A DNA stretch of 64,000 nucleotides. It comes from Streptomyces sp. HUAS ZL42 (GTDB lineage Bacteria > Actinomycetota > Actinomycetes > Streptomycetales > Streptomycetaceae). Shown in pieces: positions 6,089-42,350 of the stretch. The number at the start of each line of letters is the position of its first letter. Within the stretch, counting starts at the first letter, position 1. Both the position numbers and the translations under genes were made by a program. The stretch is taken from the NCBI RefSeq assembly GCF_040782645.1, contig NZ_CP160403.1, forward strand, positions 1,426,001 to 1,490,000, written 5' to 3'. The notes under the pieces were generated by a model. It saw only the letters and a program-made list of their open reading frames with translations. It had not been told where the DNA came from and searched no databases.

Positions 6089-6093
6089 GCCGG

Positions 6094-12753: not shown

Positions 12754-12821
12754 GAGAACTCCCAACCGGTGGCGGCTCGCCCCGGCGCCTGCGAGGATCG
12801 GTGCCGACGGAAGGAATCCCC

Positions 12822-13493: not shown

Positions 13494-13510
13494 ACTGAAC
13501 CGATCACGCA

Positions 13511-14557: not shown

Positions 14558-14577
14558 CGGTGAGAAAGCCAATCCCC

Positions 14578-14605
14578 GGTGCCGGCCTCGGGGGGAGGCC
14601 GGCAC
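14578..14605 (-). terminator. Hairpin terminator after the secreted multidomain gene
   Basis: A perfect 12-bp inverted repeat (GGTGCCGGCCTC / GAGGCCGGCACC) with a GGGG loop starts 9 bases past the stop of the 14615-18211 gene. There is no U-tract, as is usual in high-GC actinobacteria. It lies between that gene and the glycosyltransferase at 13511-14557. Confidence 0.7.
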
Positions 14606-14614
14606 CGGTGGGCA

Positions 14615-27196: not shown

Positions 27197-28242
27197 CCAC
27201 CACAGCCACAAGGATCCGGATGACACCGCTGCGCCGCCGCCTGCTCGTACTCGTCACGGCGGTGCTGCTCCTCGCGGGCCTGGCAACCGGCGTGGTCCTG
27301 CACGCGGCCGCCCGCGCGGACCGCGCGCACCGGCCGCAGTCGGGCGGCCCCGCTGTCAGCGCGGGCAAGTTGACGCTCACGCAGAAAGGCCGCCTGACGT
27401 TCATCAACGCGGCCGCCGGCCCGCACCGCACCGCGGTCGCCTCGGTGCCCTCCGCCGATCCCGAGGCCGGGCGGACCGCCTCAAGCCTGAAGTGCGCGCG
27501 CTTCTACGCTGCGGCCGGCACGGGCGTCTGCCTCCAGTCCAACCCCGGCGTCCTCAAGCAGAGCAACCGCGCCCTGCTCCTGGACGCCGACCTCCGCACC
27601 GTGCGCACCTTCCCGCTCGCGGGCACCCCGAGCCGGGCCCGGGTCTCGCCCAGTGGCCGCTTTGCCGCCTGGACCGTCTTCGTCTCCGGCGAGTCCTACG
27701 CGTCGGCCTACTTCTCCACCCGGACCTCGATCCTGGACACCCGCAGCATGCGGCTGACGCCCAGCCTGGAGACGTTCGCCATCGTCCTGGACGGCAAGCC
27801 CTACCACGCTTCGGACATCAACTTCTGGGGCGTGACCTTCGCCTCCGACGACGACACTTTCTACGCAACCCTCAACACCGCCAACCGCACCTACCTGGTG
27901 CGGGGTTCCCTCTCCCGGCGTACGGTGACCACCCTGATCCAGAACGTGGAGTGCCCGTCGCTCTCCCCCGACGGGACCCGAGTCGTCTTCAAGAAGCGGG
28001 TCCTGTCCGGTGCCACCCTCTGGCACGAGTACGTCCTCGACCTGAAGACCCTGCACGAGACGGCGCTCGCCGAACGCCACAGCGTCGACGACCAGGCCAC
28101 CTGGCTCGACAACGACACCGTCGCCTATGCCCTCCCCACCGACGGCAAGGTCGGCAGCAGCGACCTGTGGAGCGTGCCCGCGGACGGCACGGGCACGCCC
28201 CGCCTGCTGATCGCCGGCGCTTCCTCCCCGGCGCCGTTGTAG
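27193..28242 (+). CDS. Membrane-anchored or secreted TolB-like beta-propeller protein
   Basis: 349 residues from ATG 27193 (ATGA overlap with the MFS stop). An N-terminal helix at about residues 16-38 (RLLVLVTAVLLLAGLATGVVLHAAA) anchors or exports it. The remainder has repeated propeller-like blades: ARVSPSGRFAAWTVFVSGESY, NRTYLVRGSLSRRTVTTL, CPSLSPDGTRVVFKKR and DDQATWLDNDTVAYALP, the last with the TolB/PD40 pattern. It ends 21 bp before the left copy of the 43-bp repeat. It may work with the MFS transporter; function unknown. Confidence 0.78.
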   Translation: MTTTATRIRMTPLRRRLLVLVTAVLLLAGLATGVVLHAAARADRAHRPQSGGPAVSAGKLTLTQKGRLTFINAAAGPHRTAVASVPSADPEAGRTASSLKCARFYAAAGTGVCLQSNPGVLKQSNRALLLDADLRTVRTFPLAGTPSRARVSPSGRFAAWTVFVSGESYASAYFSTRTSILDTRSMRLTPSLETFAIVLDGKPYHASDINFWGVTFASDDDTFYATLNTANRTYLVRGSLSRRTVTTLIQNVECPSLSPDGTRVVFKKRVLSGATLWHEYVLDLKTLHETALAERHSVDDQATWLDNDTVAYALPTDGKVGSSDLWSVPADGTGTPRLLIAGASSPAPL

Positions 28243-28671
28243 ACCCGGCGCCGGTTCGGTTCATCAGGCCCAGGCTGCCACCGGCACGAACGAACTGTCC
28301 TGCCGGCCGGTTGTCCCGCGCACCCTCGGGTTGTCGTCTCGTCCCGGCGTGCGGTGATCATCGGCGTCCACGCGCTGGGTGTCTCGACCCTGCTCGGTTC
28401 ACTGGTGGGCACGGCTCACGCCGATAGGGCCGAAAGTCCCGGTCCCCTCCGCATCACCATGATCAGCGACTCGGACACCGGCGGTGAGAGCGCTCGGCGG
28501 CGATGAGAGTGCACGAACCCCACTTTCGAGGTGATGTTCGCGCTGGGCCACATCAGCGGTCGCCTGACACGAGACTTGCGTAAAGCGCGTACGTAATTAC
28601 CCCGATGTCTCCCCCTCACGGCTCGGCAAAGCTCGAGATGCAGTACGACGATCTGGAGATGAGGACATCCG
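28243..28671. other. Island left-end spacer
   Basis: This 429-bp gap has no convincing intact gene. At 28264-28306 it contains the left 43-bp repeat. On the plus strand 28354-28506 reads as 50 codons from a GTG with a signal-peptide-like core (VSTLLGSLVGTAHA) and a quick stop; it lacks an obvious ribosome site and is probably the 5' remnant of a secreted-protein gene. The last 160 bp before the TTG at 28672 should carry the promoter of the LAL regulator. Confidence 0.6.
28264..28306 (-). repeat. Left 43-bp direct repeat (att-like)
   Basis: Starts with TCAGGCCCAGGC and ends with ACTGTCCTGCCGG. It is 41/43 identical to 42308-42350 and stops being similar exactly at the stop codon on one side. 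Read on the minus strand it gives RQDSSFVPVAAWA and a stop, the terminus of an AbfB domain with no gene in front of it. Confidence 0.9.
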
Positions 28672-31600
28672 TTGGAGCACGCACGTCCGATCGCCGCGGC
28701 CCCACCTGCACCCCTGCACCGGGAGGTGTCCGCCTCCGAGGTACCACCGCTGGTCGGCCGTGAGCGCGAGGTCGAGCGGCTGCGGCACACGCTCACCGTA
28801 CGGACGCACACGGGGCCCTGGCTGCTGGAGATCACCGGTGAGCCAGGCGCGGGAAAGACCGGGCTGCTGACCGAATGGACCGGGCAGGCCGAACGGGCGG
28901 GGGTGGCCGTGCTGTCGGGCAGAGCGTCCGGGCCGGACCGGCATCGCCCGTTCGCGGCCTTCGCGGCACCCGTCGCCAAGGCCCTCGGTTTTCCCGACGC
29001 CTTCAGTGGCCTCACTCCGGCGGACAGGGCTCTGCTGCTCCGTCACTTCCCGGAGGCCGGTCCGTCGGGCGTCCCTCGGGCGCCGGGGCCCGAGGGTGCG
29101 GAGCGGGACCAACTGCTCGAAGCGATCGCCGAGTTGCTCTCGGCAGCCGGACATCGCCGCCGTCTGGCAGTCTGCCTCGACGACCTGCAGTGGGCGGACG
29201 ATGCCTCCCTCGATCTGCTGATCCATCTGCTGCGCCGTCCTCGTCCCAGAACGCCGCTGATCCTCGTGTGCTCCGTACGTCCCGGCCAGGGATCCCCGGG
29301 ACTGATGGCGAGCCTCGCGGACCCACACGACGCCTACCGGGTGGAACGGGTCGCGCTCGGCCCGCTGCCGCGCAGCGCGGCCGGTGAGCTGTTCGGACCG
29401 GGGACGACCGCCGACCGCCAGCGGCTGCTGTACGAAGCCGGGGGAGGCAACCCGTTCTACATGCGGGTGCTGTCACTGTCGCCGGGACCGCTGATGCCGC
29501 CCGGCGGGACCACCCCATGGGTACTGTCGGACGAGGCGGCCACGGTGGCGGCAACAGCGATCGCCCGTGAACTCACCCTGCTCGACGCCGAGGAGCACGA
29601 GATCCTCAGGGCCGCGACGGTGCTGGGCGAGGAGTTCGACCCCGCTCACCTGGCGTATCTGGCCGACCGGGCCCAGACGGTGACGGCGAAGGCCCTCGAC
29701 CGTCTGATCGCCCTGGACCTGATACGGGCCGACCACACCCATGGCCGCAGCTGCCGGCTCCGCCATCCGGTGCTACGCGCCGTCGTCTACCAGCGCGCGC
29801 CGCACAGCTGGCGCCGGGACGCCCATGCGCGCGCCGACCGCATTCTGCGGAAAACCGGCGCCGGTCCGGTGGAGCGTGCTCCGCATGTCGCGCGCTCGGC
29901 CACGACGGGCGACCACGACGCGGTCCGTCTGCTGATGGCGGCCTCCGAGCAGGTGCGGTGGAGCGAACCCACAGCCGCGGCGTCGTGGCTGAGCACGGCG
30001 CTGAGCCTGGTCCGCGGGGACGGCGACGGGCTGCGGCTGCCGTTGATGAAGTCGCTGGCGCAGTCACTGGGGACCATCGGGCGGCTACGCGAATGCCAGG
30101 AGCTGCTGCGGCGGATCCCACGGCCGGCCGGGCTGCCCCGTACCCGCGACAACGTCGAACTCGTCGCGTTCCAGGCCATGATGGAGCGCCATCTCGGCAA
30201 CTACCGTGAGGCCGAGGCCCTCCTGGAGGCCGAACTCGCCGAACTCGCCGAGCTTCCCCTGGCGCCGGAGGATCACGCCGCGCTGAGCGCGCCCCTGCGT
30301 CTGGAACTGGCCACGGTCAGTCTGCTGCGCCGGGCGTTTCCCAGGTCACGGTCGCTGGCGGAGGAGGCTCTGCGGCAGGCGCCGGCCGGGGAGGACCGGC
30401 ACAACCGTGCGGCGGACACGGCACATACAGCGGAGTCGGCGCGTACAGCGGACACGGCGCATACGGGGAACCCCTATCGCACCACCGCCCCGGTCGACCC
30501 GCCCTACCCGGTACGCATGGCCGCCATGGTCTGCCTGACGCACTGCGCCGCCTTCGAGGGAGAGGTCCCGGTGCTGCTGCGTTCAGCCCGGGAGGCCGGC
30601 GCGCTGGTGGACTCGATTGCCGACGCGGAACTCACTCCGCATCTGGACACCCTCTCCCAGCTGGGCTGGGCCGAGGCTCTCGCCGAGCTGCATCACGACG
30701 CGCTGCGCCACATGGCCCGCGGTATCCGGCTCGCCCATGCCTCAGGGCAATTGTTCATCCTGCCCTACCTGCGGCTCGCCCACGCCTACGCCAGCGTCAG
30801 CGTCGGCCGACTCACGGACGCGGTGCGGTCGGCCGAGGGCGCCGAGGAGGACGCCCGTTGGATGAAGCGGCCGGCCCTGCTCGGGTTTGCCCTGGCCCTG
30901 CGGGCATGGGCGACCTCGCTGCTGGACGGCCCGGGCGCCGCCTCACCCATCGCGGAACGGGCCGTCCAGGAACTCGGTGCGGGAGGCAGGCTGTGGGCGG
31001 TCACCGCCGGGGTGCTCGCCGATGTCCGGCTCGCGCAGGAACGGCCCGTGGACTGCCTGGAGCTGACCCGGTCCGCCACCGAACACACCCGACATCCCGG
31101 CACCGCCCGATGCATCCGGCCGATCTGGTACGCCCTGGGGGCCAGGGCCGCGGCGGCCCTGGGCGATCGCGGAGCGGCAGCCGACTGGGCACGTCGCGCC
31201 ACCGCCGACGCGGACCTGCTGGGCCTGCCGGGGCAGCGCGGTTTTGCCGCCCTCGCCCGGGCCCACAGTGTCTTGGACCCGGTCGGCCCGCTGCACGAGG
31301 CCGTCGTCGGCTTCAGCGCCGGCGGGCTGGTCCTGATGGAGTGCCAGGCAAGGCTGCTGCTCGCCAGAACACTCCTCTCCCGAGAGGCATACGACAAGGC
31401 ACTGGAGCAGGCCAAGCGGGCCAAGAACCTCGCGGCGGCGTCCGGGGCCCGCCGCCTGTACCGGGAGGCTGTGGACATCCAGCGCCGGCTGGGAGCCCAC
31501 CAGCCTCGTTCGGTCCGGGAGAGGGAGAGCCCACTGCCCGAGATGTCCGTCCGCGAGCGGGAGATCGCCCGCATGGTGACCCTTGGCATGTCGAACAGCG

Positions 31601-31740
31601 ACATCGCCCGCGCGCTCGTCGTCTCCCCCAAGACCGTCGAGGCCCATCTCACCCGCATCTTCCGCAAAGTCGGCGTACGCTCCCGCGTCGCCCTGGTCAC
31701 CGCACTGCGGCCGCAGACCGGCCAGGAGTCCCCCGCCTGA
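28672..31740 (+). CDS. LAL-type LuxR family transcriptional regulator
   Basis: 1022 residues from TTG 28672 (GATGAGGAC upstream). Large ATP-binding LuxR regulators activate secondary-metabolite operons. Walker A is GEPGAGKT (56-63), Walker B LAVCLDDLQWADD near residue 165, then TPR-like helices, and the C-terminal 65 residues form the LuxR HTH (VREREIARMVTLGMSNSDIARALVV, then SPKTVEAHLTRIFRKVGV). Near residues 580-600 a low-complexity repeat (DTAHTAESARTADTAHT) reflects an imperfect DNA repeat at 30412-30470. It is the only regulator inside the putative island and is a candidate controller of the lanthipeptide genes, which lie downstream on the opposite strand. Confidence 0.88.
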   Translation: MEHARPIAAAPPAPLHREVSASEVPPLVGREREVERLRHTLTVRTHTGPWLLEITGEPGAGKTGLLTEWTGQAERAGVAVLSGRASGPDRHRPFAAFAAPVAKALGFPDAFSGLTPADRALLLRHFPEAGPSGVPRAPGPEGAERDQLLEAIAELLSAAGHRRRLAVCLDDLQWADDASLDLLIHLLRRPRPRTPLILVCSVRPGQGSPGLMASLADPHDAYRVERVALGPLPRSAAGELFGPGTTADRQRLLYEAGGGNPFYMRVLSLSPGPLMPPGGTTPWVLSDEAATVAATAIARELTLLDAEEHEILRAATVLGEEFDPAHLAYLADRAQTVTAKALDRLIALDLIRADHTHGRSCRLRHPVLRAVVYQRAPHSWRRDAHARADRILRKTGAGPVERAPHVARSATTGDHDAVRLLMAASEQVRWSEPTAAASWLSTALSLVRGDGDGLRLPLMKSLAQSLGTIGRLRECQELLRRIPRPAGLPRTRDNVELVAFQAMMERHLGNYREAEALLEAELAELAELPLAPEDHAALSAPLRLELATVSLLRRAFPRSRSLAEEALRQAPAGEDRHNRAADTAHTAESARTADTAHTGNPYRTTAPVDPPYPVRMAAMVCLTHCAAFEGEVPVLLRSAREAGALVDSIADAELTPHLDTLSQLGWAEALAELHHDALRHMARGIRLAHASGQLFILPYLRLAHAYASVSVGRLTDAVRSAEGAEEDARWMKRPALLGFALALRAWATSLLDGPGAASPIAERAVQELGAGGRLWAVTAGVLADVRLAQERPVDCLELTRSATEHTRHPGTARCIRPIWYALGARAAAALGDRGAAADWARRATADADLLGLPGQRGFAALARAHSVLDPVGPLHEAVVGFSAGGLVLMECQARLLLARTLLSREAYDKALEQAKRAKNLAAASGARRLYREAVDIQRRLGAHQPRSVRERESPLPEMSVREREIARMVTLGMSNSDIARALVVSPKTVEAHLTRIFRKVGVRSRVALVTALRPQTGQESPA

Positions 31741-32260
31741 GCCTGAGACGGGCGACGCCCGAGCACCGCTGCGCGTGCGGTCACTCGATCGCCTTTCGCC
31801 GAACCGGGCCTGCGGAGGAGATCCCCACCAATGCGGATGCCGGCCGCTACGCCAGTGCCTGGCTCACCACGTCTGCACACCCTGGCCGTCACCGAACGCG
31901 CCCTCATCCGGACCCGTGGGACGGCGGCACAGGACGTGACGCGGGCGGGGGCGCGTCAGTTGCAGCCCGTCAGCGCGTCGGAGGGCTTGAGGCGAGCCAA
32001 TGGCAGCTCTTGGCGAGGCACGATTCCGCCCACACAAGAGGGGGAGCGTTGCTGCGGTGTCAATCCCTGGTTTCGTAGAGACGTTGGTTATGCGGCCCGG
32101 CCTTCCTGATCGGTCCGGGCTCGCGCGTCCTGGATGATCCGTTCGAACTCGACGGGGCGTTCTCCGGCCGGCCGCGCTGCTCGCACAACGGCTGCACCTC
32201 ACCGAGATCAAGATCCGCGGCGTGGGTGACGTGCTGATGCTGGTCTGCGACCGGCTCGAA
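31741..32260. other. Convergent spacer with mobile-element debris
   Basis: The 520 bp between the LAL regulator and the last lanthipeptide ABC gene hold no intact gene. The final 70 bp are an IS256-type transposase scrap (separate entry). The rest has short open frames in several phases without ribosome sites or recognisable motifs, consistent with decayed sequence. Confidence 0.6.
32190..32260 (+). pseudogene. IS256-family transposase fragment
   Basis: The plus strand encodes LTEIKIRGVGDVLMLVCDRL, which closely matches the conserved central block of actinobacterial IS256 (Mutator-like) transposases, where the usual text is TEIKNRGVxDVLMLVCDGLKG. It contains the second catalytic Asp region (VCD). 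Upstream and downstream continuity is lost and no terminal repeats were found, so only about 23 codons of a transposase of some 400 residues survive. It abuts the stop of the ABC transporter gene on the other strand. Confidence 0.75.
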
Positions 32261-34006
32261 CTATGTTGCGTCCTCGGGTCGCCAGCGGCCGACGAGGTCC
32301 GCGTAGCCGGTGCTGCGCACCAGGAGTTCGCCATGGGTGCCCAGGTCCGCGCGGTCGCCGTCGAGCAGGAGGACCCGCCCGGCACGATGGGCCGAGGCGA
32401 TGCGGTGAGCGATGACGATCAGTGTGCCGGGCCGGTCGGCGAAGACCTTCTCGGCACGTGCTTCGGCCGGCGGGTCGAGGTGGCACGTGGCCTCGTCGAG
32501 GATGACCACCCTCGCCGGTGACACAAATACCCGTACAAGTACCAGTAGTTGGCCCTCCCCACTGGACAACTGGGTGGCCGGGTCGGTTATCTCGGCGTCC
32601 AGGCCGCCGAGGCGGTCGATCACGGCCTTCGCGCCCAACAACGCAGCGTCCCGGGCCAGTTCGGCATCGGTCACCTCGCTGTTGAGGTAGGTCAGGTTCT
32701 CGCGGACCGTGCCATGAAAGACGTACGCCTGCTGCGGGACCAGCGCGATCGTCCGGCTTCTGAGCCGATCGTCGAGTACGGCGGCGTCGGCCCCGCCGAG
32801 TCGCACGGTGCCCGAGTCCGGGGCTGCGAGGCCCGCCAGCAAGCCCGCCAGAGTGGACTTGCCGATGCCACTGGAACCGACGATCACCAGATGCTCGTCC
32901 TCCGGAACGGACATCGACAGATCGTGCAGCACGGCCTCGGCATGCGGACCGTAGCCGAAGGTGAGGCGGTCCACGCTCAGTTCGTAGCCCTCGGGAGTGG
33001 GGGCGTGTGCCGGGGCGGGCGCGTCGGATGTCCCGGGCGCTGCGGTGGTCTCCGCCAGCCGGGTGAGAACGGTGCCCAGGTGAATCCACTGGCCGCCGAC
33101 CGACCCGGTCAGCGCCTGCAACGCCGCCACCAGGTATCCCGTCACATAGGTGACGGCTCCGACCAGTGCGCCCGCGCTGATCCTTCCGCTCGAGACGAGC
33201 CACGGCCCGGCGAGGAGCAGCCCCAGCAGCGGCAGGTGTCCACCGAGGAAGACGATGAGGATCCGCACCGCGCTCAAGCGGGCCGTCGCCACGCCGGCCC
33301 GGGCGTACCCGAGCGCCCCCTCCTCGACCTCCCCGGCGGCACGGTCCTGTGCGCCGAGCGCGAAGATGTCGTGCCGGGCGTCGAGCACCTGCCCGGTGCG
33401 CACGGCCACGGATTCCTCGGCCAGGACGGAAGCTCTGAACCTGCGCGACATCGCGCGCAGCGTGAGGGGTAGCACGAGCAGGGCGAGCAGCATGGGGGGC
33501 AGCACGAGCGCGGCCGCGACGGGGTTGAGCGTGACCAGCCCGATGATCGCCGCAAGCAGTGTGGCGGCCAGTGGCCGGGCCGTACGCAGCAGCGTGGCGA
33601 CCAGCCCGCGCACGGAGTCCACCTGACCGGTCAGCCGGGCCACTCCGGCGGCGTCCGGGGTGCTGCCGCTCCCGGACGCGGCCTGCCGCAGCGCAGACTC
33701 TACGAGTCGGCGCACCAAGTGGTCGCGCAACGGCTCGACGACCTCGGCCAGATGGGGAAACATGGCTCGCTCGGCCGCCGACCGCACCACGTAGAGCACG
33801 CCGAGCAGGGTCAGCCAGCCCAGACCGGCGAAGGGGCGTCCGGCCAGGAAGCCCCGGTCGATCGCCGTCGCCGTCACCCAGCCCGCTGCCAGCGCCGGGC
33901 AGGCCTCCAGTACCGACCAGCCCGCGATCCTGAGCATCGGCGACCGGCTGCCTCGCAGCCCCGACCTCAGCAGTCGCAGTCCGTCCCCGCTCACCATGCT
34001 AGACAC
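32261..34006 (-). CDS. ABC transporter, fused permease and ATPase (lanthipeptide export, second subunit)
   Basis: 581 residues from GTG 34006, or 578 from ATG 33997 just after the previous stop. Six membrane helices occupy residues about 20-310; the nucleotide-binding domain follows with Walker A GSSGIGKST, Q-loop ALVPQQAYVFHGTV, Walker B RVVILDEATCHLD and the H-loop IAHR. The signature is LSSGEGQLL instead of LSGGQ, a modest deviation. It is the last gene of the lanthipeptide operon and overlaps its partner, so the two half-transporters probably form a heterodimer exporting one or more of the peptides. Substrate is inferred from context. Confidence 0.87.
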   Translation of the reverse strand: MSSMVSGDGLRLLRSGLRGSRSPMLRIAGWSVLEACPALAAGWVTATAIDRGFLAGRPFAGLGWLTLLGVLYVVRSAAERAMFPHLAEVVEPLRDHLVRRLVESALRQAASGSGSTPDAAGVARLTGQVDSVRGLVATLLRTARPLAATLLAAIIGLVTLNPVAAALVLPPMLLALLVLPLTLRAMSRRFRASVLAEESVAVRTGQVLDARHDIFALGAQDRAAGEVEEGALGYARAGVATARLSAVRILIVFLGGHLPLLGLLLAGPWLVSSGRISAGALVGAVTYVTGYLVAALQALTGSVGGQWIHLGTVLTRLAETTAAPGTSDAPAPAHAPTPEGYELSVDRLTFGYGPHAEAVLHDLSMSVPEDEHLVIVGSSGIGKSTLAGLLAGLAAPDSGTVRLGGADAAVLDDRLRSRTIALVPQQAYVFHGTVRENLTYLNSEVTDAELARDAALLGAKAVIDRLGGLDAEITDPATQLSSGEGQLLVLVRVFVSPARVVILDEATCHLDPPAEARAEKVFADRPGTLIVIAHRIASAHRAGRVLLLDGDRADLGTHGELLVRSTGYADLVGRWRPEDAT

Positions 34007-35735
34007 GTGTCGTCTCCCGCCCGTGTGGTGCCTGGGGCGCCGGGGTGGTGTCCCCGCCGTCCGCGAAGACCGCCCGGTAGCCGCCGTCCTGCCACAGCTC
34101 GGCGTGCGGCGCGACCGCCACGACGCGTCCGTTCTCCAGCCATGCCACGAGATCGCAGCGGGCCGCCGTGGCCGCCCGGTGGGCGACGACCAGGCGGGTG
34201 CGGTCCCGGAGCATCGTCGTGATCGCCTCGGTGACCTCCGCCTCGGTGACGGTGTCCAGTCCCGAGGTTGCGTCGTCGAGCACGAATACCCGCGCCGGGC
34301 GGACCAACGCCCTGGCCAGACCTACGCGTTGGCGTTCGCCGCCGGACATCGGCGCCCGGTCCAGCGGGGTGTCGTACCCCTCCGGCAGTCGCCGGATGAA
34401 GGAGTCGGCGTGCGCCGCTCGAGCCGCGGCCGTCACATCGGCGCGGGTCAGCTCGGCACGGCCGTACGCGATCGCCTCGTGCACCGTCCCGCCGACCAGA
34501 GCCGGCTGGTCGAAGGCGTAGGTGACCCGGCGGCTCAGCTCCGCCAGGCTCAGCTCGTCGACCGGCACTCCGTCCAGGAGCACATGGCCCGACTCGGGGT
34601 CGGTCAGCCGGCCTATCAACGAGGCCACCAGGCTCTTGCCCGCGCCCGAACGGCCGACCAGCCCCACGGACTTTCCGGCCGGGATGTCCAGGTCGAGGTG
34701 GTCGAGCAGGGGTTCGCCGTCCCGGGTGACCGTCACGTCGCGCAGCCGGACCGCGCCGGGGCCGTCCTGCGGGCTCTGCCGGGTACCGCTCACCGGCGCG
34801 GGATCGGCCAGGATCTCGGCCAGCCGGCCGGTGCCCGCCCGTACCTGGGCGATCTGCAGCAGGACGTCGATCTGTCCCAGCGCGCCGGATGCCATCGTCA
34901 GGTATCCGGAGACCGCCAGCAGTTCCGCCGGGCCGACCCGTCCGGCGGACACACCGAAGCCCGCGACCGTCAGGACCACCACCTGGGCCAGCGGGGTCAG
35001 CAGCTTCAACTGCCACACCGCACCCCGCTGGAGGCTCCACAGCGACCGGCCCGCCGCGGACAGCTCGGGCAGCGGGCGCAGTACGCGTTCGCTCTCCGGG
35101 CCGACCGTGCCCGCGGCCCGGATCGTACGTGCCCCGCCCAGCGCGGACAGCAGCCGGGCCGCGATGCCCGACTGTGCTTCCAGGTACTCGGCCTGCGCGG
35201 CCGTCGCGCCCCCGATGAACCGCTTAGCGATCAGTACCACGGTGGGCAACGCCAGTGTGAAGGCCAGGCCCGACCACCAGTCCATCCGCCACAGCAGCAC
35301 CAGCGCGACCAGCGAAGCGGTCAGCGAGACCACCGAACCCGCCAGCGCGACGGGCAGGTTCGCGGTACTGGGCGCACCCTGCACCACCCGGGCGGTGGCG
35401 TCTCCCGGCGGCAGGGGCGAGCGGGATCCCAGCGTCAGCAGGTGCCGCACGGTACGGGTCTGCAGCCATACGCCCGCCCGGCCCGCGGCCGAGGCGCCCA
35501 GCAGGGCGAGTACGGCCTCCAGCAGTCCGCCGACGACGATCGCCAGCCCCAGCAGTGTCGCCGGGCGGACGATGTCGCCGCCCTCCAGCGCCACCGCCAC
35601 GGCCGACGCGAGCAGGGCCGGGGTGGCCAGGGTCAGCACGGCGCTTCCCGCCATCATGACCACGATCGCGGTCAGCGGACCGCGTATGCGTTGTGCTGTG
35701 CTCAGCAGCAGCTCACGGCTGCCGTAGGAGGCCAA
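33999..35735 (-). CDS. ABC transporter, fused permease and ATPase (lanthipeptide export, first subunit)
   Basis: About 578 residues if TTG 35735 is the start; GGAG lies 6 bases before it. The frame stays open to 35906, but that extension runs through a hairpin and precursor 1, so it is rejected. Residues about 18-300 hold six helices; the ATPase has Walker A GRSGAGKS (361-368), signature MSGGERQRVGLARAL and Walker B VFVLDDATSGLD with the H-loop VVAHR. It uses canonical motifs, unlike its partner. Distance from precursor 1 is 91 bp with a strong hairpin between, which probably lowers transporter expression relative to the precursors. Confidence 0.87.
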   Translation of the reverse strand: MASYGSRELLLSTAQRIRGPLTAIVVMMAGSAVLTLATPALLASAVAVALEGGDIVRPATLLGLAIVVGGLLEAVLALLGASAAGRAGVWLQTRTVRHLLTLGSRSPLPPGDATARVVQGAPSTANLPVALAGSVVSLTASLVALVLLWRMDWWSGLAFTLALPTVVLIAKRFIGGATAAQAEYLEAQSGIAARLLSALGGARTIRAAGTVGPESERVLRPLPELSAAGRSLWSLQRGAVWQLKLLTPLAQVVVLTVAGFGVSAGRVGPAELLAVSGYLTMASGALGQIDVLLQIAQVRAGTGRLAEILADPAPVSGTRQSPQDGPGAVRLRDVTVTRDGEPLLDHLDLDIPAGKSVGLVGRSGAGKSLVASLIGRLTDPESGHVLLDGVPVDELSLAELSRRVTYAFDQPALVGGTVHEAIAYGRAELTRADVTAAARAAHADSFIRRLPEGYDTPLDRAPMSGGERQRVGLARALVRPARVFVLDDATSGLDTVTEAEVTEAITTMLRDRTRLVVAHRAATAARCDLVAWLENGRVVAVAPHAELWQDGGYRAVFADGGDTTPAPQAPHGRETTRV

Positions 35736-35783
35736 ATCCGACTCCGATCCATGGATGATGCGGCTTTTTTCGGTGCCACGAGC

Positions 35784-35818
35784 ACGGCCGGGCGTGGAGC
35801 ATCTCCACGCCCGGCCGT
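35784..35818 (-). terminator. 15-bp hairpin between precursor genes and exporter genes
   Basis: Perfect inverted repeat ACGGCCGGGCGTGGA / TCCACGCCCGGCCGT with a 5-base loop, starting 9 bases after the stop of precursor 1. On the minus strand no U-run follows (an A-run does), so it may act as a partial terminator or an mRNA-stabilising 3' end. On the plus strand it would lie just downstream of a T-run. Confidence 0.7.
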
Positions 35819-35826
35819 TCAGTCGG

Positions 35827-35979
35827 TCACCAGGCACTGATGTTGCAGCTGAGTCCTTCACACGTGCCGACGCACGTGAAGAGGCAGCTGGTGGGGCACT
35901 TCCCATCCGGGCTGATGGCGAGCTGCTTCTCCTGACTGTCCAGGAGCTGCAATGCCTCGATGCTGTATTCGATATCCAT
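35827..35979 (-). CDS. Cys-rich lanthipeptide precursor 1
   Basis: 50 residues, too short for routine gene calling. ATG 35979 is preceded by AGGAGGTGAAAC. The leader MDIEYSIEALQLLDSQEKQL carries the amphipathic ALQLL motif found in class III/IV leaders. The predicted core after about Gly26 has Cys at 28, 32, 36, 40 and 45 and Ser/Thr at 30, 31, 35, 39, 44 and 48; four of the Cys are immediately preceded by Ser or Thr. The leader is nearly identical to precursor 2, but the core differs in sequence and Cys spacing (3-3-3-4). It lies downstream of lanL and the protease. Product structure unknown. Confidence 0.85.
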   Translation of the reverse strand: MDIEYSIEALQLLDSQEKQLAISPDGKCPTSCLFTCVGTCEGLSCNISAW

Positions 35980-36035
35980 GTTTCACCTCCTCTCGGGGAA
36001 CCAGTTCATCTGTCACCGGCTCAGCTGGTGACGAG
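35954..36035 (-). repeat. 82-bp perfect direct repeat, copy A (precursor 1/2 junction)
   Basis: Identical base for base to 36145-36226, 191 bp apart. It spans the 5' leader codons and ribosome site of precursor 1, the 41-bp spacer and the last codons of precursor 2. This shows that the precursor genes arose by tandem duplication with strong conservation of leader and spacing. Confidence 0.92.
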
Positions 36036-36170
36036 ACACGAGAGGGCGCAACTCACCTCGCAGGAAACGACGTTGCAACTGAACGCGCAGACCCACTCCC
36101 TGTATCCGGACAGCGCCGCCTCATCGCCCTTGAAAAGCTGCAGCGCCTCGATGCTGTATTCGATATCCAT
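36021..36170 (-). CDS. Cys-rich lanthipeptide precursor 2
   Basis: 49 residues; ATG 36170 with AGGAGGTGAAAC before it. The leader MDIEYSIEALQLFKGDEAAL matches precursor 1 for the first 12 residues and precursor 3 in the LQLFxGDEA block. Cys at 28, 32, 37, 41 and 45 (spacing 3-4-3-3) and Ser/Thr at 31, 36, 40, 44, 48 and 49; four Ser-Cys dyads. The core tail SCALSCLVTS is identical to precursor 3. Spacer to precursor 1 is 41 bp, the same as that from precursor 3. Confidence 0.87.
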   Translation of the reverse strand: MDIEYSIEALQLFKGDEAALSGYREWVCAFSCNVVSCEVSCALSCLVTS

Positions 36171-36226
36171 GTTTCACCTCCTCTCGGGGAACCAGTTCAT
36201 CTGTCACCGGCTCAGCTGGTGACGAG
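36145..36226 (-). repeat. 82-bp perfect direct repeat, copy B (precursor 2/3 junction)
   Basis: Identical to 35954-36035. It covers the leader start and ribosome site of precursor 2, the 41-bp spacer and the 3' end of precursor 3. Perfect identity between copies implies recent duplication or gene conversion, since the core segments outside the repeat have diverged. Confidence 0.92.
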
Positions 36227-36367
36227 GCAGGAAAGGGCGCAGCTCACCTTGCAGGAAGCGATGTTGCAGCTGAACGTGCACATCCCCTTGGTCGGGTCTT
36301 CATAGGCAAGGGAAGCCTCATCGCCCTGGAAGAGCTGCAGAGCGTCGATCTCGAACTCCATGTCCAT
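36212..36367 (-). CDS. Cys-rich lanthipeptide precursor 3
   Basis: 51 residues from ATG 36367 (a second in-frame ATG at 36361); AGAGGAGGTGAAACAC lies upstream. The leader MDMEFEIDALQLFQGDEASL contains the same ALQLF motif. Cys at 30, 34, 39, 43 and 47 have the same 3-4-3-3 spacing as precursor 2, each of the last four preceded by Ser; extra Thr/Ser at 31, 50 and 51. The first 50 bp overlap the 3' end of the S9 peptidase gene, so it is translationally linked to the protease. It is the first of three tandem precursors. Confidence 0.87.
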   Translation of the reverse strand: MDMEFEIDALQLFQGDEASLAYEDPTKGMCTFSCNIASCKVSCALSCLVTS

Positions 36368-38219
36368 GTGTTTCACCTCCTCTCTCGGTGGTTTGGTCGC
36401 AGTCGCCGTTCACGACCGTGGTCCCGGCGCGGCCGTCGTGCCCGCGCGCCGAAGCGGAGGGTTCCGCCCGGAGGTGGTCAGGCCGTGCCAGGAAGCCTGT
36501 GATCTCGGGTCCCAGCGGGTCGCCCTCGTGCATGCCGAACGTCATGTGGCCGCGGTTGGCGGGTTCGCGGTAGGTGATGTCGCCATGGCCCGCGTCGATC
36601 AGCCGGTGCACCAGTGCCCGGGACTGGGAGACGGGAATGGTCTCGTCGAGCCGACCGTGGGCGATGAGCACCCTCGCCCGGATACGCGGCACCAGCAGGT
36701 CCAGGTCGCGCGGTCCGAGGCCGTCGTCCACCTCACCGTGGCCGCGCAGCCGGTCGATCAGGTTGCGTGTCGGCTGGTACGCCTCCTCGTACAGCTTGGC
36801 GGCCGAGCGGAACGGGGCGACCGCCACGCAGGCCGACCAGCCGTCGGGATCGGCGGCTGCCGCGAGAAGGGCCAGGAAGGCCCCGTAGCTGATGCCGTAG
36901 ACCGCAGGGCGGTCGGCGTCCGGTGCCCGGACCGTGCCTATGGTGTCGCGAAGGGCGCGGATGTCGGCGAGGTCGGGGCCGCCCCAGGCGTCCCGGATGG
37001 CGTCCTCGTGGGCCTTTCCGTATCCGGTGCTGCCGCGCTGGTTGGGTGCGATCACGGCCAGGCCGGCGGCGGCGAGCTTCTGCAGCAGCGGATCGAAGCC
37101 GAGCGTCCAGTGCCGGTTCGGACCGCCGTGCAGGGCGATCACCACGCGGCGGCTGGTCCGCCAGTCCGGGCCGTACACGACGGCCTCGATCGGACCCGCC
37201 GGGCCATGGAAGGTCTCCAGTCGCCCGGGCGTCCACACCACCCCGGTGGGGTCCTCCGGCTGCCAGGGCAGGAGCTCCCGGCCACCGGGCGGAACCCAGC
37301 CGAAGGCGGTGGGCCGGGTCGGTGAGGAGAACGGCAGCCACAGTCCGCGGCTGGTCCACGCCGCCACGGGGTCCAGCTGCCCCGGGGGCATGTCGACGTG
37401 CTGGACCGTGTCCGACTCGATGTCGTACAGGACGAGTTCCGACCGTGCTCCACGGGTCACCACCGTGGCCGTCGCCGTCCCTTCGGGATCGAGCGCTACC
37501 GGGCTCATGACACCGTCCTGGACGCGAGGGCCGTCAAGGAGACGTATGCCTGCGCAGCCGGAGGTGCGGGCCAGCCCCAGCCGCATCCCCGCCTCGGTGT
37601 CGGCCGCGACAAGGACCTGGTCCGCGCCGGCGAGTACGACATGACAGGCCCTGGCGGGCGGCAACTCGGCGAGCAGGCGGTTCCTGCGGTCTTCCGGCGG
37701 ATCCGGATCGATGACCAGGGGGGTCGGCGTGCCGTCGAGGACGGCGGTGACGATCAGCAGGCCGCCGGTGACGGCCACCCCTCCGATGCGGCCGGGCACG
37801 CGCGCCACCTCTGTGGGCGACACGTCCGCATCCACCCGGTAGAACGTCGAAGAGCCGTCTGCCTCGGTGGCGATCGCCGTGGCGATCCAGTCGTTCCGGG
37901 ACAGCCCCGGCACCAGCCGAAGCGGCGTTTCGCTGGTCCGCAGCGCCAGCCGTCGGCCGTCTTCGCCGAGAAGCTCATAGTGCTGGGCGCCGCCGAGTCC
38001 ATGCCAGGAGAGCAGCACCCGGCCGTCGTCGAGCACCACGGCCTGAGGCATTTCCATGTCATGGGTGAGCGGGACGCGCAGGGTCCGCCGGGGACCGTCG
38101 TCAGCGAGCTCCCAGACTTCCAGATGGCCGACGCCCCGGTCGTCCTTGCACAGGCACGCGGCGCGCAGTGCGCCTGCGGAGAACACCACAGCGCCGCGCG
38201 AGACGATACGAGGCGTCAT
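36318..38219 (-). CDS. S9-family prolyl oligopeptidase-like protease (candidate leader peptidase)
   Basis: 633 residues from ATG 38219, which overlaps the lanL stop (ATGA). Residues 1 to about 320 form a degenerate beta-propeller; the alpha/beta-hydrolase domain follows with HGGPNRHW, GSTGYGKAHEDAIRDAWGGP, nucleophile Ser444 in GISYGAF, Asp525 in HGRLDETIPV and His558 in NRGHMTF. There is no signal peptide, so it acts in the cytoplasm. POP-type proteases (for example FlaP) remove leaders in some class III lanthipeptide systems; this gene sits between the synthetase and three precursors, so the same role is likely. The last 17 codons overlap precursor 3. Confidence 0.87.
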   Translation of the reverse strand: MTPRIVSRGAVVFSAGALRAACLCKDDRGVGHLEVWELADDGPRRTLRVPLTHDMEMPQAVVLDDGRVLLSWHGLGGAQHYELLGEDGRRLALRTSETPLRLVPGLSRNDWIATAIATEADGSSTFYRVDADVSPTEVARVPGRIGGVAVTGGLLIVTAVLDGTPTPLVIDPDPPEDRRNRLLAELPPARACHVVLAGADQVLVAADTEAGMRLGLARTSGCAGIRLLDGPRVQDGVMSPVALDPEGTATATVVTRGARSELVLYDIESDTVQHVDMPPGQLDPVAAWTSRGLWLPFSSPTRPTAFGWVPPGGRELLPWQPEDPTGVVWTPGRLETFHGPAGPIEAVVYGPDWRTSRRVVIALHGGPNRHWTLGFDPLLQKLAAAGLAVIAPNQRGSTGYGKAHEDAIRDAWGGPDLADIRALRDTIGTVRAPDADRPAVYGISYGAFLALLAAAADPDGWSACVAVAPFRSAAKLYEEAYQPTRNLIDRLRGHGEVDDGLGPRDLDLLVPRIRARVLIAHGRLDETIPVSQSRALVHRLIDAGHGDITYREPANRGHMTFGMHEGDPLGPEITGFLARPDHLRAEPSASARGHDGRAGTTVVNGDCDQTTERGGETHGHGVRDRRSAALPGR

Positions 38220-40996
38220 GTCAGCGCGCCAGCCGTCCCGATGATGCTCGTACCCTGCTCGGGAAGCGGCCAGGCGGTGTCGACCATGAGGGGACGCGTT
38301 CCGCCGTGACGCAACCGCAGCAGGAACGCCACCACCCCGGCCAGCCCCACCCCGTAGTCGGCGGTGACCTGCATACCGGTCTCGTTCGGGACGAGCATCC
38401 GACCTTCGTGCAGAGCGTGCCGTGCGTGGAGGGCGGCGGCGATGTCCTCGGCCCACCGCTGGTACGGGCCGCCCAGCAGCTGGGCCATGTCGAGGAGGAA
38501 GTCGCCGTTTCCGGCGAGTCCGTGGCAGATCGATGTCCCCGAGGACAAGTGGGCGTGGCGGACGGCCTTGGCCGCGTCCTCCGCCAGTTCGCGCATCACC
38601 GGGTCATCGGTCGCACGCCACAGCCGGATCAGGAAGGTGCCCACGCCCGAGGCGCCGCTGCACAGGTGGTAGAGCATTCCCGTGCCGTCCTCGTCGGCCC
38701 GGTCGACGCGCCAGCGGGCACCCCACGGACCGTGCTCGGCAGTGCTTGCGAGGGTCTCGCCCGCCTTGCGCGCCGCGTCGAGGCAGTCCTCCCGGCCGGT
38801 TGCCAGCGCGGCCTCCAGCAGGAAGGCGCCGACTCCGGCGACGCCGTGGGCGTATCCCAGGTGGGTGATGCCCGCGAGGGAGGAGTCGAAGTCCGACGGA
38901 ACCGGCCAGAACACCCCGTCGTCGGTGTGCTGGGCTGCGGCCAGCACACCGTCGGCGCAGTCCGCGGCACGGTCGAGGAACTCCTGCCGACCGGTTGCCC
39001 GCCAGAAGTGCAGCTGGGTCAGGCCGGCTCCGGCTGCTCCGTGGAACAGATCCGGGTTGGGCCAGCGGACGGGCAGCGTTAGGGCGAACCGTGCCGCGCG
39101 TTCGGCCAGTGCGGTGTCTCCCAGGTGGCGGGCGGCGTCGTACACGGCCCAGGCGGTGCCCGCCCTGCCGAAGTACAGACCGGGCAGCGGTGTGGTGGCC
39201 TGCCGATCGCCGCGGATGTCGAGCCACGCGGCCGTGTCGGCCATGGCGGTGCACAGGTCTTCGCGGGCGAGGACCTTGTCGGCCTGGGTGAGAACGGTCA
39301 GGACGCCGGCCGCGCCGTGCTGCACGTTGCACGGGTCGGTGGTGGCGCCGAAGGACGTGCTGTCCCAGAGCCGTTCGGCGTCGCCCTTGGCCATGGTGGA
39401 CAGCACATGGGCGAGGCCGTCGTCGATGAGCCGGTCGGTGAGGGCCGGGTCCAGGCCTGATGCCGGCGGTTCCGCAGCGGGACCGGTGGCTGCCGGCCGC
39501 ACCGGTTCCGGCTGAGACTCCGTCTCGTCGAGATACGCCGTCAGCCGCTCCAGCGACCAGCGCTGTTCGGGGTCCTGCGCGCACAGCCCGCGGATGGCCG
39601 GTGCCAGCAACGCCGCCGCGGCGCCGCGGTGCGTGAACAGGGCAAGCAGGCCGTCGAGCCGTTCCAGCGCGGTGCGTTGGTCCGCAGGCTGGTCGGGCGG
39701 CAGCGCCGGGTTCATGCCGGTCGCCATCTGGAAGAGCATCGCCCCGAGAGCGAACAGGTCCATGCTCTGCCCGGGCACCGGGCCGTACGTCGGCCCTGAC
39801 ACGTACTCGGGCGCGGCGAACCCCGGGGTGTAGGCCCGGTGGTCCCACACTCCAGGCTTGCCGAGGAACTCCGGGTCGATCAGGCGCAGTTGGCCGTCCG
39901 GCGTCACCATCACGTTGTTGGGAGTGAAGTCGCGGTACACCAGGCCCCGGCCGTGGATGTCGCCGAGCAGAGCGGCCAGCCGGCGGGCGGTGTCCCTCAC
40001 CAGGTCGCAGGAGAGCCCCAGGCTCTGGTCCTCCAGCTCCGAGTAACGCTCTTGCAGCCACCCCAGCAGGGTGACGCCCGGTACCACGGTCTCCACCAGG
40101 AAGGTGTGGTCGTCCTGGTCGAACAGCTCGACCAGCTCCGCGCCGAGTCCGGACAGCTCGGTCAGTGCCTTCGCCTCGGCCCTGAGCCCGTCGCGCGCGT
40201 CGAGCCCGCTGTACCCGCCGCCGACGTGGGCGCGAGCCTGCTTGACGATGACCTCCTGGCCCGTCTGCTGGTCCAGCGCCCGGTACACCCCGCCTCGCGC
40301 CGAGTGCCGGATCGCCTCATGGACGGCGTACCTGTCGTGCAGCAGCACCTTCTTCGGGGTCTTGGGGGCCACGCCCGGCCGGCCAGGTGCACCGGGGAAG
40401 GGCAGCTCCGCCCAGGGCGGAGGGGAGAACCACGGGTTGCGCCGGTCCTCGACCGCGTTGCCGTCGGGCGCCTCCAGCCGGACCTGCCGCACACCCTCAT
40501 TGGTCACATGCGGGACACCGAGGAACGCGCCGTACCGGTAGTGCACGATGCTGCCCTTCCGGAACGGACGGTCCGACTGGATCGCGGGCCCCGGCAGTCC
40601 GGCCGTGGCGAAGTCGAGTTCCTCGGCCAGCTCCCGGAACTGGTCGTCGTCATGCGGATAGGCGGTGATGAACTTGCCGCACTGAGCCCGGTCGGAGCGC
40701 ATGCTGGTCAGTTCCTCGACGTACTCCGCCCGCGCGGCGAACTTGAACGAGCACCCCTTGCGCACCAGCACCCGTGCGGCGCGGTGCAGCACCTCAGGCG
40801 CCGACAGCGGGGTCGCCGACAGGTGCAGCTTCCATCCCTGGATCCGCTTCGACTCCTCCGTCACCGGGCCCACCCGGCACCAGAAGTCGCCCTCGGCCAG
40901 CCCCCAGTCCTGCACGCCCTCGTCGTCCAGGACCAGGCGCACCAGCGCCTGCAGCGGAAATCGTGAGCCTCCGGCTCCAGGGCCGTTCACCGACAT
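38216..40996 (-). CDS. lanL: Class IV lanthipeptide synthetase LanL
   Basis: 926 residues from ATG 40996 (GGAG six bases upstream); the frame is open to 41122 but without a ribosome site. Three modules are visible: an N-terminal lyase region (about 1-215), a Ser/Thr kinase-like domain (about 220-490: GGVYRAL, Lys252 in VIVKQ, YRDFTPNN at 354-361, DPE at 374-376) and a LanC-like cyclase (about 520-926). The cyclase keeps zinc-ligand residues Cys779 (HLCSGASG) and Cys824/His825 (ICHGLAGN) and GYAHG at 714-718, which separates class IV LanL from class III LanKC. It phosphorylates and eliminates Ser/Thr and adds Cys thiols. Four precursors flank it. Confidence 0.92.
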   Translation of the reverse strand: MSVNGPGAGGSRFPLQALVRLVLDDEGVQDWGLAEGDFWCRVGPVTEESKRIQGWKLHLSATPLSAPEVLHRAARVLVRKGCSFKFAARAEYVEELTSMRSDRAQCGKFITAYPHDDDQFRELAEELDFATAGLPGPAIQSDRPFRKGSIVHYRYGAFLGVPHVTNEGVRQVRLEAPDGNAVEDRRNPWFSPPPWAELPFPGAPGRPGVAPKTPKKVLLHDRYAVHEAIRHSARGGVYRALDQQTGQEVIVKQARAHVGGGYSGLDARDGLRAEAKALTELSGLGAELVELFDQDDHTFLVETVVPGVTLLGWLQERYSELEDQSLGLSCDLVRDTARRLAALLGDIHGRGLVYRDFTPNNVMVTPDGQLRLIDPEFLGKPGVWDHRAYTPGFAAPEYVSGPTYGPVPGQSMDLFALGAMLFQMATGMNPALPPDQPADQRTALERLDGLLALFTHRGAAAALLAPAIRGLCAQDPEQRWSLERLTAYLDETESQPEPVRPAATGPAAEPPASGLDPALTDRLIDDGLAHVLSTMAKGDAERLWDSTSFGATTDPCNVQHGAAGVLTVLTQADKVLAREDLCTAMADTAAWLDIRGDRQATTPLPGLYFGRAGTAWAVYDAARHLGDTALAERAARFALTLPVRWPNPDLFHGAAGAGLTQLHFWRATGRQEFLDRAADCADGVLAAAQHTDDGVFWPVPSDFDSSLAGITHLGYAHGVAGVGAFLLEAALATGREDCLDAARKAGETLASTAEHGPWGARWRVDRADEDGTGMLYHLCSGASGVGTFLIRLWRATDDPVMRELAEDAAKAVRHAHLSSGTSICHGLAGNGDFLLDMAQLLGGPYQRWAEDIAAALHARHALHEGRMLVPNETGMQVTADYGVGLAGVVAFLLRLRHGGTRPLMVDTAWPLPEQGTSIIGTAGALT

Positions 40997-41154
40997 TGAG
41001 TACTCCAGGATGAGACGTGCATGAGTGAGCAGGAGGTGGGCAGCAACCGGTGCCGTGCGTGGGCGCGGTCCGCTGGGACTTGCGGGAACCGGCGGATGCC
41101 CGTGGGGCCGAGCGGGGAACACGGCCCCACGGATCTACACGGAGGGCAGGACCT

Positions 41155-41283
41155 TTACCACTGTTCGGTGGTCCACGAGATGGTGATGACGCAACCGATG
41201 GTGAAGCCACAGGCCTTGTCGGGTTCCGGGCCGGCGGCGGTCGGCTCGATCAGCATCTGCAGCGACTCGAGTTCGGTGTCCAT
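41155..41283 (-). CDS. lanA: Class IV-type lanthipeptide precursor 4
   Basis: 42 residues from ATG 41283; AGGGAG lies eight bases upstream. The leader MDTELESLQMLIEPTAAGPE has the LQML motif. The presumed core after Asp22 has Cys at 25 and 31 and Thr/Ser at 28, 34, 36, 38 and 39, with GCVITISWTTEQW at the end; this GCVxTxSW text is, from memory, like known class IV cores such as the venezuelin/streptocollin group. It is unlike precursors 1-3 in leader and core. It is the first gene of the operon, 158 bp before lanL, and is preceded by a LuxR-box-like palindrome. Confidence 0.85.
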   Translation of the reverse strand: MDTELESLQMLIEPTAAGPEPDKACGFTIGCVITISWTTEQW

Positions 41284-41627
41284 AGATTCACTCCCTGGTC
41301 GTTCCTTCTCGGACGACACGATCCTGGCAACCGCCCCTCCGCCCTAGCATTGGGGAAACCCCTAATTCGGTTGTCTAACCGGTTCTGACTGACGAAAAGT
41401 TGACCTGGCGGGCTTACTGCACGACGGATTTCGCACCCAGACGTATGGAGCATGCGGGCCCTCTCCGTGGATCGGGTGTCAGCGCGCCTTGGTGGTTGAA
41501 CCTGGCCCGCTAGTGCCGGGTTCCTCTTTTGTTGGGTATATGTCCTGGTGGCGGGGTCGTTCGGGTCTCGGGGGCGGGTGCTGGTGCCATCGCGGAAGGG
41601 CAGGGGCTCCGCCGGGTGCGGGATGCC
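41284..41627. other. Lanthipeptide promoter region and decayed sequence
   Basis: The first 120 bp upstream of precursor 4 (minus strand) hold its ribosome site, a palindrome at 41350-41365 and a possible -10 (TAGGGC) about 6 bp downstream of it. The remaining part to 41627 is the decayed 3' side of an IS982-type transposase frame and has no intact gene. Confidence 0.5.
41350..41365 (-). promoter_or_regulatory. LuxR-box-like palindrome upstream of precursor 4
   Basis: On the minus strand the text is TTAGGGGTTTCCCCAA, centred about 74 bp before the ATG at 41283. The published consensus for PAS-LuxR regulators of the PimM type is CTVGGGAWWTCCCBAG; 13 of 16 positions agree. Its position relative to the possible -10 would place it over the -35 element, usual for an activator. 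A LuxR-family LAL gene lies in the same island. Binding is inferred. Confidence 0.5.
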
Positions 41628-41825
41628 GCGGTTGCGGTAGGAGGACCGCAGCAGGCTGACGCCGCGGGCGGCGAGGAAGCGGTCGAGTTCGGTAGCAATG
41701 TGGCCCTTGTCCGCCAGGATCAGCCGGCCCGGCCGGGCGGCGGCCAGATGTGGTTCGTTGCCGATCAGGGCGGCCGGCACCTGCCGGTCGTCGATCTTGG
41801 GATCGGTCACGGCCCAGGTGAGGGT
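41628..41825 (-). pseudogene. IS982-family transposase fragment
   Basis: The minus strand encodes TDPKIDDRQVPAALI, GRLILADKGHIATELDRFLA and ARGVSLLRSSYRNR, matching the central DDE part of actinobacterial IS982 transposases (DPKxxxREV, LLADKGF, GLTLLRP). Only about 65 codons are recognisable; the N-terminal catalytic Asp and the C-terminal part are missing or scrambled. Its 5' end abuts the DUF2637 fragment in another frame, so an insertion or deletion joined them. Confidence 0.78.
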
Positions 41826-42207
41826 TCGCGGCGAGGGAGACGGCAACTCCCAGCAAGAAGGCCAACCAGATGGCCGATCGAGCTCGGCGGGTGGCAAGGA
41901 GCAAGAGGCCGTCCACCGACAGGGGCCACAACAAAGCACTCACCGTGTCCGCTCCGCCTTGCAGAGCGAACTCCCGCTGATGCACGTACGAATCGCAGGC
42001 GGCGGCCCCTGCGACGACGAGCGCACACAGGGGCCGCAACCACACTTCGAGACCCACTGCACGTCGGCCGACAGCGAGTCCCGCCGCCTCTTCGAGCCGC
42101 CGCCTCATCCGGCCCTTACCTGCGGCACTGGGAACTTGGCGGACTCGTCGGTCCAACGTGCGCTGCCCGCTGAGCGATACAGCCCAGCCAGCAAGATCAT
42201 TGCGCAT
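41826..42207 (-). pseudogene. Truncated DUF2637 (Spd-like mobile-element) membrane protein gene
   Basis: From ATG 42207 (or 42108) the minus strand encodes a protein whose second half has two membrane helices and the DUF2637 text: DSYVHQREFALQGGADTVSA, LLWPLSVDGLLLLA and IWLAFLLGVAVSLAAN. Genes with this domain occur in actinomycete integrative elements of the pSAM2 type and related plasmids. The domain normally continues past SLAAN with a further helix; here it stops and the DNA switches to IS982-type sequence in another frame. The gene is therefore broken. Confidence 0.75.
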
Positions 42208-42307
42208 CTATTGCACAGTTGGCCGGGAACTCCCGGGAATTGCAGGGAAGTGGAGGGATGCGTTCCGCAGCCGTCGGCGCAACTTCCCAGGTCAGCAAGG
42301 GTGCAGC

Positions 42308-42350
42308 TCAGGCCCAGGCCGTCACCGGCACGAACGAACTGTCCTGCCGG
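42308..42350 (-). repeat. Right 43-bp direct repeat (att-like)
   Basis: This copy forms the 3' end of the GH43/AbfB gene, including its stop codon. It matches 28264-28306 at 41 of 43 bases; similarity ends sharply on both sides. The 100 bp before it (42208-42307) contain no gene. Confidence 0.9.

Follow-up and report, generated by a model that had tools for sequence, protein, structure and literature searches.

How did some 14 kb of DNA carrying a predicted lanthipeptide cluster come to have a copy of an AbfB-domain gene end at each of its borders? The question is raised by a 64,000-nucleotide stretch of Streptomyces sp. HUAS ZL42 (hereafter, the window), which spans bases 1,426,001-1,490,000 of a 9.87-Mb genome assembled as a single contig (NZ_CP160403.1). 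Our analysis indicates that the 14-kb stretch is very probably the remnant of a tyrosine-integrase-type integrative element lying between its two attachment sites, and the same AbfB gene end seems to have served as landing place for other islands in several related species. The island is a remnant and not a working island, a label that we use because an integrase gene was not found in the window.

As an initial annotation of this DNA had noted, the island is bounded by two 43-bp direct repeats. They lie on the same (minus) strand, are identical at 41 of 43 positions and, in a pattern search of the whole genome allowing up to 3 mismatches, occur at these two places only (reversed control, 0). 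The right repeat consists of the last 13 codons and stop of the AbfB-domain open reading frame (ORF), which is intact. The left copy, which begins 21 bp past the stop of the neighbouring ORF, is an orphan tail, since its alignment to the gene runs only from -42 to 0 (counted from the stop-codon end) and just 1 of the 12 bases beyond agrees. It is the attachment-site remnant on the native side of the island, next to a gene that we refer to as propeller-like, although neither Pfam nor NCBIfam gives the match that its description as a propeller gene would lead one to expect. The GH43 catalytic domain proposed for the right-hand gene was not recovered either, Pfam reporting only the AbfB domain and NCBIfam nothing. 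Within the repeat, the putative core is made of inverted 9-bp half-sites (8 of 9 positions matching) around 8 bp, with its centre at -29.5.

An unoccupied locus with a single tail copy had been predicted, and such an empty site is present in S. canus V4I20 and Streptomyces sp. S3(2020) (loci L220 and L224), with a gap of 8 and 10 bp between the convergent propeller-like and AbfB genes where 21 bp had been expected. At both, the order is propeller-like gene, AbfB gene with one tail copy, amidase and flotillin, the last two as in the window, and the element-end sequence that follows AbfB in the window is missing. These sites came only from scanning named genomes for the propeller-like protein (78 loci, some cut by contig ends), and none from a sample of 392 genomes of the genus, where the propeller-like (at least 79% identical) and AbfB genes share a contig in G260, G125, G213 and G115, about 158 kb or more apart. 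In G217 the amidase gene directly follows the propeller-like gene, and the genome holds no close AbfB orthologue. The genes on either side of the island thus go together in some species, and this locus varies.

The orphan tail is not peculiar to the window. When the AbfB-tail pattern (up to 3 mismatches) was run on the 392 genomes, 66 were matched, the reversed control giving 0 among the matches listed; the tails examined are those of the AbfB gene proper, as distinct from its close paralogues (about 65% identical). In addition to the tail of the gene itself, extra copies were present in the window genome (G000), G007, G011 (two), G148, G121 and G236, and an orphan in G299 turned up through a search with the element arm. 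The orphans of G007, G011 and G148 lie 8.2-20.7 kb behind the intact AbfB gene, on the same contig and in the orientation of the gene (4.2-20.7 kb, same orientation, if a copy in G244 is counted); those of G121, G236 and G299 are on contigs other than that of AbfB. Relative to the own gene of each genome, six of the eight orphans (G000, G007, G148, G011 twice and G121) start at -42, the others at -44 (G236) and -47 (G299), and the left boundaries agree within 5 bp across the window and six other genomes. TC precedes the core in 6 of the 7 other orphans and GG in the window, and no long AbfB remnant was found in the 60 nt adjoining each orphan. In a blastn comparison of the loci, conserved blocks start at gene ends, not at the tails. 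Two single loci may be described here. In G236 (contig 1, 46788) a lone AbfB tail sits among genes that follow AbfB in other species. In G032 (contig 152, L013) the AbfB 3' end follows the consensus within the core as far as CAGTTCGTTCGTG and then diverges, as though the end of another element had joined at that point and not restored the gene.

The cargo of the three orphan loci examined is unrelated to that of the window: genes for GH32 and sugar transport in G011, TRAP transport and a two-component system in G007, and deacetylases, kinases and oxidoreductases in G148. Two repeat copies without the lanthipeptide genes, which the initial annotation would have taken as evidence against an island, do literally occur in these three genomes; however, the copies flank other cargo, which points to a shared landing site and not to a refutation.

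Behind the AbfB gene, a conserved element end (P' arm) spans +1 to about +120. Among 79 fetched loci from 78 other genomes with AbfB orthologues at least 78% identical, a similar end was found in 13 in addition to the window, at a threshold of E <= 0.01 where the shortest matches are only 17-18 nt. The motif CTGACCTG is exact at +13 in 10 of these 14 P' arms, and CTGASC stands there in 13. On the inner side of the orphans, CAGGTCMG (background 1.0e-4 per position) occurs at -79 in both G011 copies (c2 and c3) and in G299, where it is the exact mirror of CTGACCTG about the core centre at -29.5, and at -78 in G007. As judged from these putative sites, the window would have kept the core and P' arm and lacks the P arm, which is seen in four of the eight orphans; neither CAGGTCMG nor GTGCA was found in the 130 nt adjoining its left core. 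A same-contig orphan accompanies 5 of the 14 loci with the arm versus 0 of 66 without it (Fisher 8e-5, uncorrected for kinship; the counts include the weak G244 copy, and 9 of the 79 loci had less than 10 kb downstream). On the AbfB gene tree, presence of the end requires 10 changes, at least 9 of them forced by supported branches, and is somewhat clustered (shuffled mean 13.1 changes, 4 of 500 shuffles as low).

Used as a DNA query on the 392 genomes, the end matched in 22, several only over its distal half. Related ends also stand behind rnpB in other genomes and behind one further gene in G299. RNase P was confirmed by Rfam in 2 of 6 such loci tested, the others showing only a recognisable rnpB-like tail, and G335 has two copies of the rnpB tail 11.5 kb from each other. 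The third target gene, in L316 (G299 contig 21, 338588), is presumably aldehyde-dehydrogenase-like, to judge by its sequence. The candidate reading of 42198-42307 as native downstream DNA of AbfB was dropped, the sequence being present also behind rnpB and another gene. Exact core and arm patterns had no match in IMG/VR, and neither did the tail-plus-arm DNA and a DUF2637 protein when compared with plasmids and phages. A side observation concerns L318 (G335), where the rnpB-flanked island (4383-15911) holds an RHS protein with a Tox-ART-HYD1 domain and a match to a Gp3-like directionality factor.

An integrase is associated with these ends in G241 (contig 46, L313/L330), where a tyrosine integrase gene is followed by an arm with GCGCAGGTCAGG, an rnpB tail, the end sequence and DUF2637; this is a complete integrase-arm-core-arm-DUF2637 junction at rnpB. 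This integrase has few relatives (3 of 276 genomes at E <= 1e-60), and the one in G237 has an internal stop; behind it, the thresholds used revealed neither an rnpB nor an AbfB tail, and what stands there is a more distant sequence. An rnpB tail also follows the integrase of G295 and a broken integrase in G146. The group comprises 58 proteins at E <= 1e-30, some of them annotated as hypothetical proteins and nothing more, and is apparently undescribed. In G011, a C-terminal fragment of the same family, 76-83% identical, lies about 0.2 kb before the AbfB orphan c2, and it is this adjacency that connects the AbfB scars with the integrase family. The search of other genomes for the repeat next to integrase genes, as suggested at the outset, lends support to the integrative-element reading: orphan tails recur, one has an integrase fragment beside it, and an intact relative is present at rnpB. 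In G260 (contig 1, about 1318 kb) there is an integrase remnant, 65-69% identical, on the AbfB strand and 85.5 kb behind AbfB, with no tail copy found there.

The first gene inside the element end is also shared. A DUF2637 gene or remnant follows the end in G299, G241, G103 and G217, as in the window, where Pfam agrees with the DUF2637 fragment noticed at the outset. G073 has a DUF2637 remnant behind AbfB without an arm, and in G260 one was seen behind AbfB by eye, where tblastn gave no report of one. Of 3 DUF2637 proteins tested, 2 match PHROG 733 (named excisionase); the fragment of the window does not. In L323 (G103), group II intron matches at 6378-8239 lie near a DUF2637 pair and an rnpB-like tail.

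From these data we infer the direction of integration, the order of events and the action of a G241-type integrase at AbfB in the window as follows. The element would have recombined into the last 43 bp of the AbfB-domain gene, probably at the 8-bp centre of the core. It would have supplied a new gene end, so that AbfB is whole and carries the right copy, while the old end would have been pushed away together with the native neighbour and would now be the left copy, beside the propeller-like gene. The P' arm and the broken DUF2637 gene would be what the element left near AbfB. Integrase and P arm, at the opposite end, would have been lost afterwards, and therefore the island has probably lost the ability to move on its own. 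Its interior is now taken up by the predicted class IV lanthipeptide cluster. As in cis-mobilizable elements, the window has flanking sites without an own recombinase.

Several observations weigh against an integrative origin. No integrase was found in the window, in agreement with the initial annotation, either by an integrase hidden Markov model (HMM) or by tblastn with the integrase of the element family, and an intact integrase was found behind AbfB in none of the 79 loci examined, 9 of them with less than 10 kb downstream. The HMM hit 30 of 30 control loci, 16 of which were used in the model, and it missed the short G011 fragment, so that its negatives cover intact genes only. A replication or transfer gene was not found in the window, the mirrored P-arm motif is absent from the window and from the orphans of G148, G121 and G236, and in the last case the orphan is on a different contig and the AbfB gene has no arm. 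The G244 orphan is weak (27 bp, 24 matching). Nine of the 14 loci with the arm have no same-contig orphan in the stretch read (G121 and G299 have one elsewhere), and in independent pairs on the tree the link between arm and orphan is one-directional and not significant (median p 0.125). The AbfB gene lies within 10 kb downstream of the propeller-like gene in only 4 of the 78 loci, and in L222 and L231 about 4 kb of other genes separate the two without an orphan tail. Finally, the likeness between the AbfB and rnpB cores is weak, as 118 of 20000 shuffles and 146 of 9140 window 26-mers are as good, and it is only suggestive. Neither a traB (FtsK-type) domain among the island proteins tested nor a replication initiator in the island was found with Pfam, the best match to the integrase family in the window genome is about 30% identical, and a scan of the last 8.3 kb of G121 contig C373 detected no integrase. 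The insertion-sequence scraps reported within the island were not confirmed, 6 ORFs tested giving 0 Pfam matches at E <= 0.01.

The repeats themselves could have arisen in other ways. According to an alternative offered by the initial annotation, a second AbfB gene was deleted and the left copy is its stump; this agrees with the 23 AbfB-domain matches in the window genome and with the G236 tail, which looks as a lost gene would leave it in a region that follows AbfB elsewhere, and whose agreement with the AbfB consensus extends another 5 bases, to -47. That separate deletions should stop within 5 bp of one another in seven genomes, with -42 in six of eight copies, is hardly to be expected; moreover, a stump predicts neither mirrored arms nor an integrase fragment, the empty sites have one AbfB gene and the long AbfB remnant that one would look for was not seen in the 60 nt beside each orphan. 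We regard this origin as very unlikely indeed. Hardly likely too is that 42198-42307 represents ancestral DNA downstream of AbfB and that an incoming AbfB allele replaced the old gene, leaving its tail: related sequence stands behind rnpB and an unrelated gene in other genomes, adjoins an integrase in G241 and is absent from the empty sites, even though it is conserved behind AbfB in several species, its presence is clustered on the gene tree to the extent given above, and the two tails of the window differ at 2 positions, like tails of different species.

A different matter is whether the lanthipeptide cluster ever travelled with the element. The scar may be real and the cluster a later arrival, which ordinary recombination or transposition placed in an element that had already decayed and with which it never moved; we give this a substantial chance, somewhat short of even, and since it refines the integrative-element explanation the odds of the two overlap. 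Cargo differs completely among the islands examined (G011, G007 and G148), L222 and L231 hold other gene sets between the same neighbours without an orphan tail, and the edges of the island appear decayed and are low in guanine plus cytosine (0.643 on the left, 28307-28671, and 0.663 on the right, 41290-42307), while the interior genes have long open frames and the island as a whole (0.707) is no different from its flanks (0.712 and 0.702). On the other side, the junction of such a second insertion was not identified, the cluster reaches near both ends, and it is ordinary for elements to bear cargo. Of what the initial annotation proposed, the integrative-element remnant is well supported, and arrival of the lanthipeptide genes as its cargo goes beyond the evidence. 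Returning to the integrative element, we consider it doubtful, and put forward only as a speculation, that the AbfB end is a long-lived docking bay where old scars remain with the integrase gone and cargo, natural-product clusters included, is swapped between them; in the same doubtful scenario, the exchange would be carried out by integrases of related elements that normally use rnpB, their arms being alike and the core weakly similar.

The features of the island and of its borders are collected in Table 1.

Table 1. Features in and around the island, in window coordinates, with the evidence for each.
Feature	Position	Strand	Evidence or remark
Left native neighbour, propeller-like, 349 aa, no family match	27193..28242	+	Closest orthologues 79-89% identical
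Left repeat, displaced orphan AbfB tail	28264..28306	-	41/43 to AbfB tail
Putative core of left copy, CCGGCAGGA-CAGTTCGT-TCGTGCCGG	28281..28306	-	Read from sequence
Decayed left inner edge	28307..28671		P arm and integrase, which relatives show or partly retain, are absent
Large AAA/LuxR-type regulator, 1022 aa	28672..31740	+	Pfam AAA_16 4.7e-26, GerE 4.3e-16
ABC transporter 1 of lanthipeptide cluster	32261..34006	-	Pfam ABC_tran, ABC_membrane
ABC transporter 2 (start uncertain)	33999..35906	-	Pfam ABC_tran, ABC_membrane
Candidate precursor A3, 50 aa	35827..35979	-	Small ORF, ribosome-binding site, Cys/Ser-rich end
Candidate precursor A2, 49 aa	36021..36170	-	Small Cys/Ser-rich ORF
Candidate precursor A1, 51 aa	36212..36367	-	Small Cys/Ser-rich ORF
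S9 prolyl-oligopeptidase-like protein (start uncertain)	36318..38240	-	Pfam Peptidase_S9 2.3e-21
Class IV lanthionine synthetase LanL (start uncertain)	38216..41122	-	NCBIfam lanthi_synth_IV 1036.7 bits, cutoff 650
Possible fourth precursor, 42 aa	41155..41283	-	Read by eye
Broken DUF2637 gene, first inside element end	41479..42207	-	Match about 41824-42030, Pfam 4.1e-09
Element end (P' arm)	42198..42307	-	CTGACCTG at +13..+20 (42295-42288), repeated TTCCC, TGTGCA-like repeats
Right repeat, AbfB tail inside intact gene	42308..42350	-	Core at 42325-42350
AbfB-domain gene, intact	42308..43696	-	Pfam AbfB 4.6e-46

The cargo is, as predicted from its genes, a class IV (LanL) lanthipeptide cluster. 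The search with the synthetase returned 735 proteins at E <= 1e-50 among 7991 scored candidates, the best other being 75% identical, and assignment to class III was ruled out by a score of 458.4 bits, under the NCBIfam cutoff of 575. The S9 protein could possibly act as leader peptidase. The A1-A3 stretch contains a 153-nt near-tandem DNA repeat, 91% identical, and the three precursor-like ORFs at 35827-36367 have five Cys each; a word search among about 5.8 billion proteins found no relative of A2 other than itself. Outside the island, a twelve-base tandem repeat is present at 26525-26569 inside a major facilitator superfamily transporter gene.

What the locus adds is a gene for a carbohydrate enzyme as attachment site, in use across several Streptomyces species, together with a recognisable end sequence related to the ends of elements at rnpB and other genes. 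This end provides a sequence handle for islands that lost their integrase and are missed by integrase-based searches, it helps to ask how clusters such as those for lanthipeptides are exchanged, and it draws attention to a group of integrases, apparently undescribed, for which a site is predicted. The kind of island is known, and the AbfB attachment site and the element family are apparently undescribed: an AbfB or rnpB attachment site in Streptomyces was not found in the open-licence literature searched by title and abstract. As regards its cargo, the window resembles other class IV clusters in its LanL, two ABC transporters and small Cys/Ser-rich precursors, and differs from them in an A2 without relatives, three or four precursors and an additional S9 peptidase.

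Actinomycete integrative and conjugative elements, according to Choufa et al. 2022 (PMC9513070), insert in tRNA (36) or protein-coding genes (14), can accrete at one site in Streptomyces with empty sites in relatives and, on decay, leave cargo genes between two direct repeats; the defective elements described there keep traB, whereas no traB, rep or int was found here, and the main text of that paper mentions neither arabinofuranosidase nor rnpB. In the Islander paper (PMC4383910), genomic islands carry tyrosine integrases and lie at the 3' ends of tRNA and tmRNA genes. As in those islands, the target gene is restored by the island and a displaced fragment marks the far end; unlike them, the island of the window has an AbfB-domain gene end as target and has lost its integrase. 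PAISt of Streptomyces turgidiscabies (PMC4057263) likewise sits at the 3' end of a protein-coding gene and is excised in a modular way, its site being an 8-bp palindrome at bacA in contrast to the 43 bp of the AbfB-domain gene in the window.

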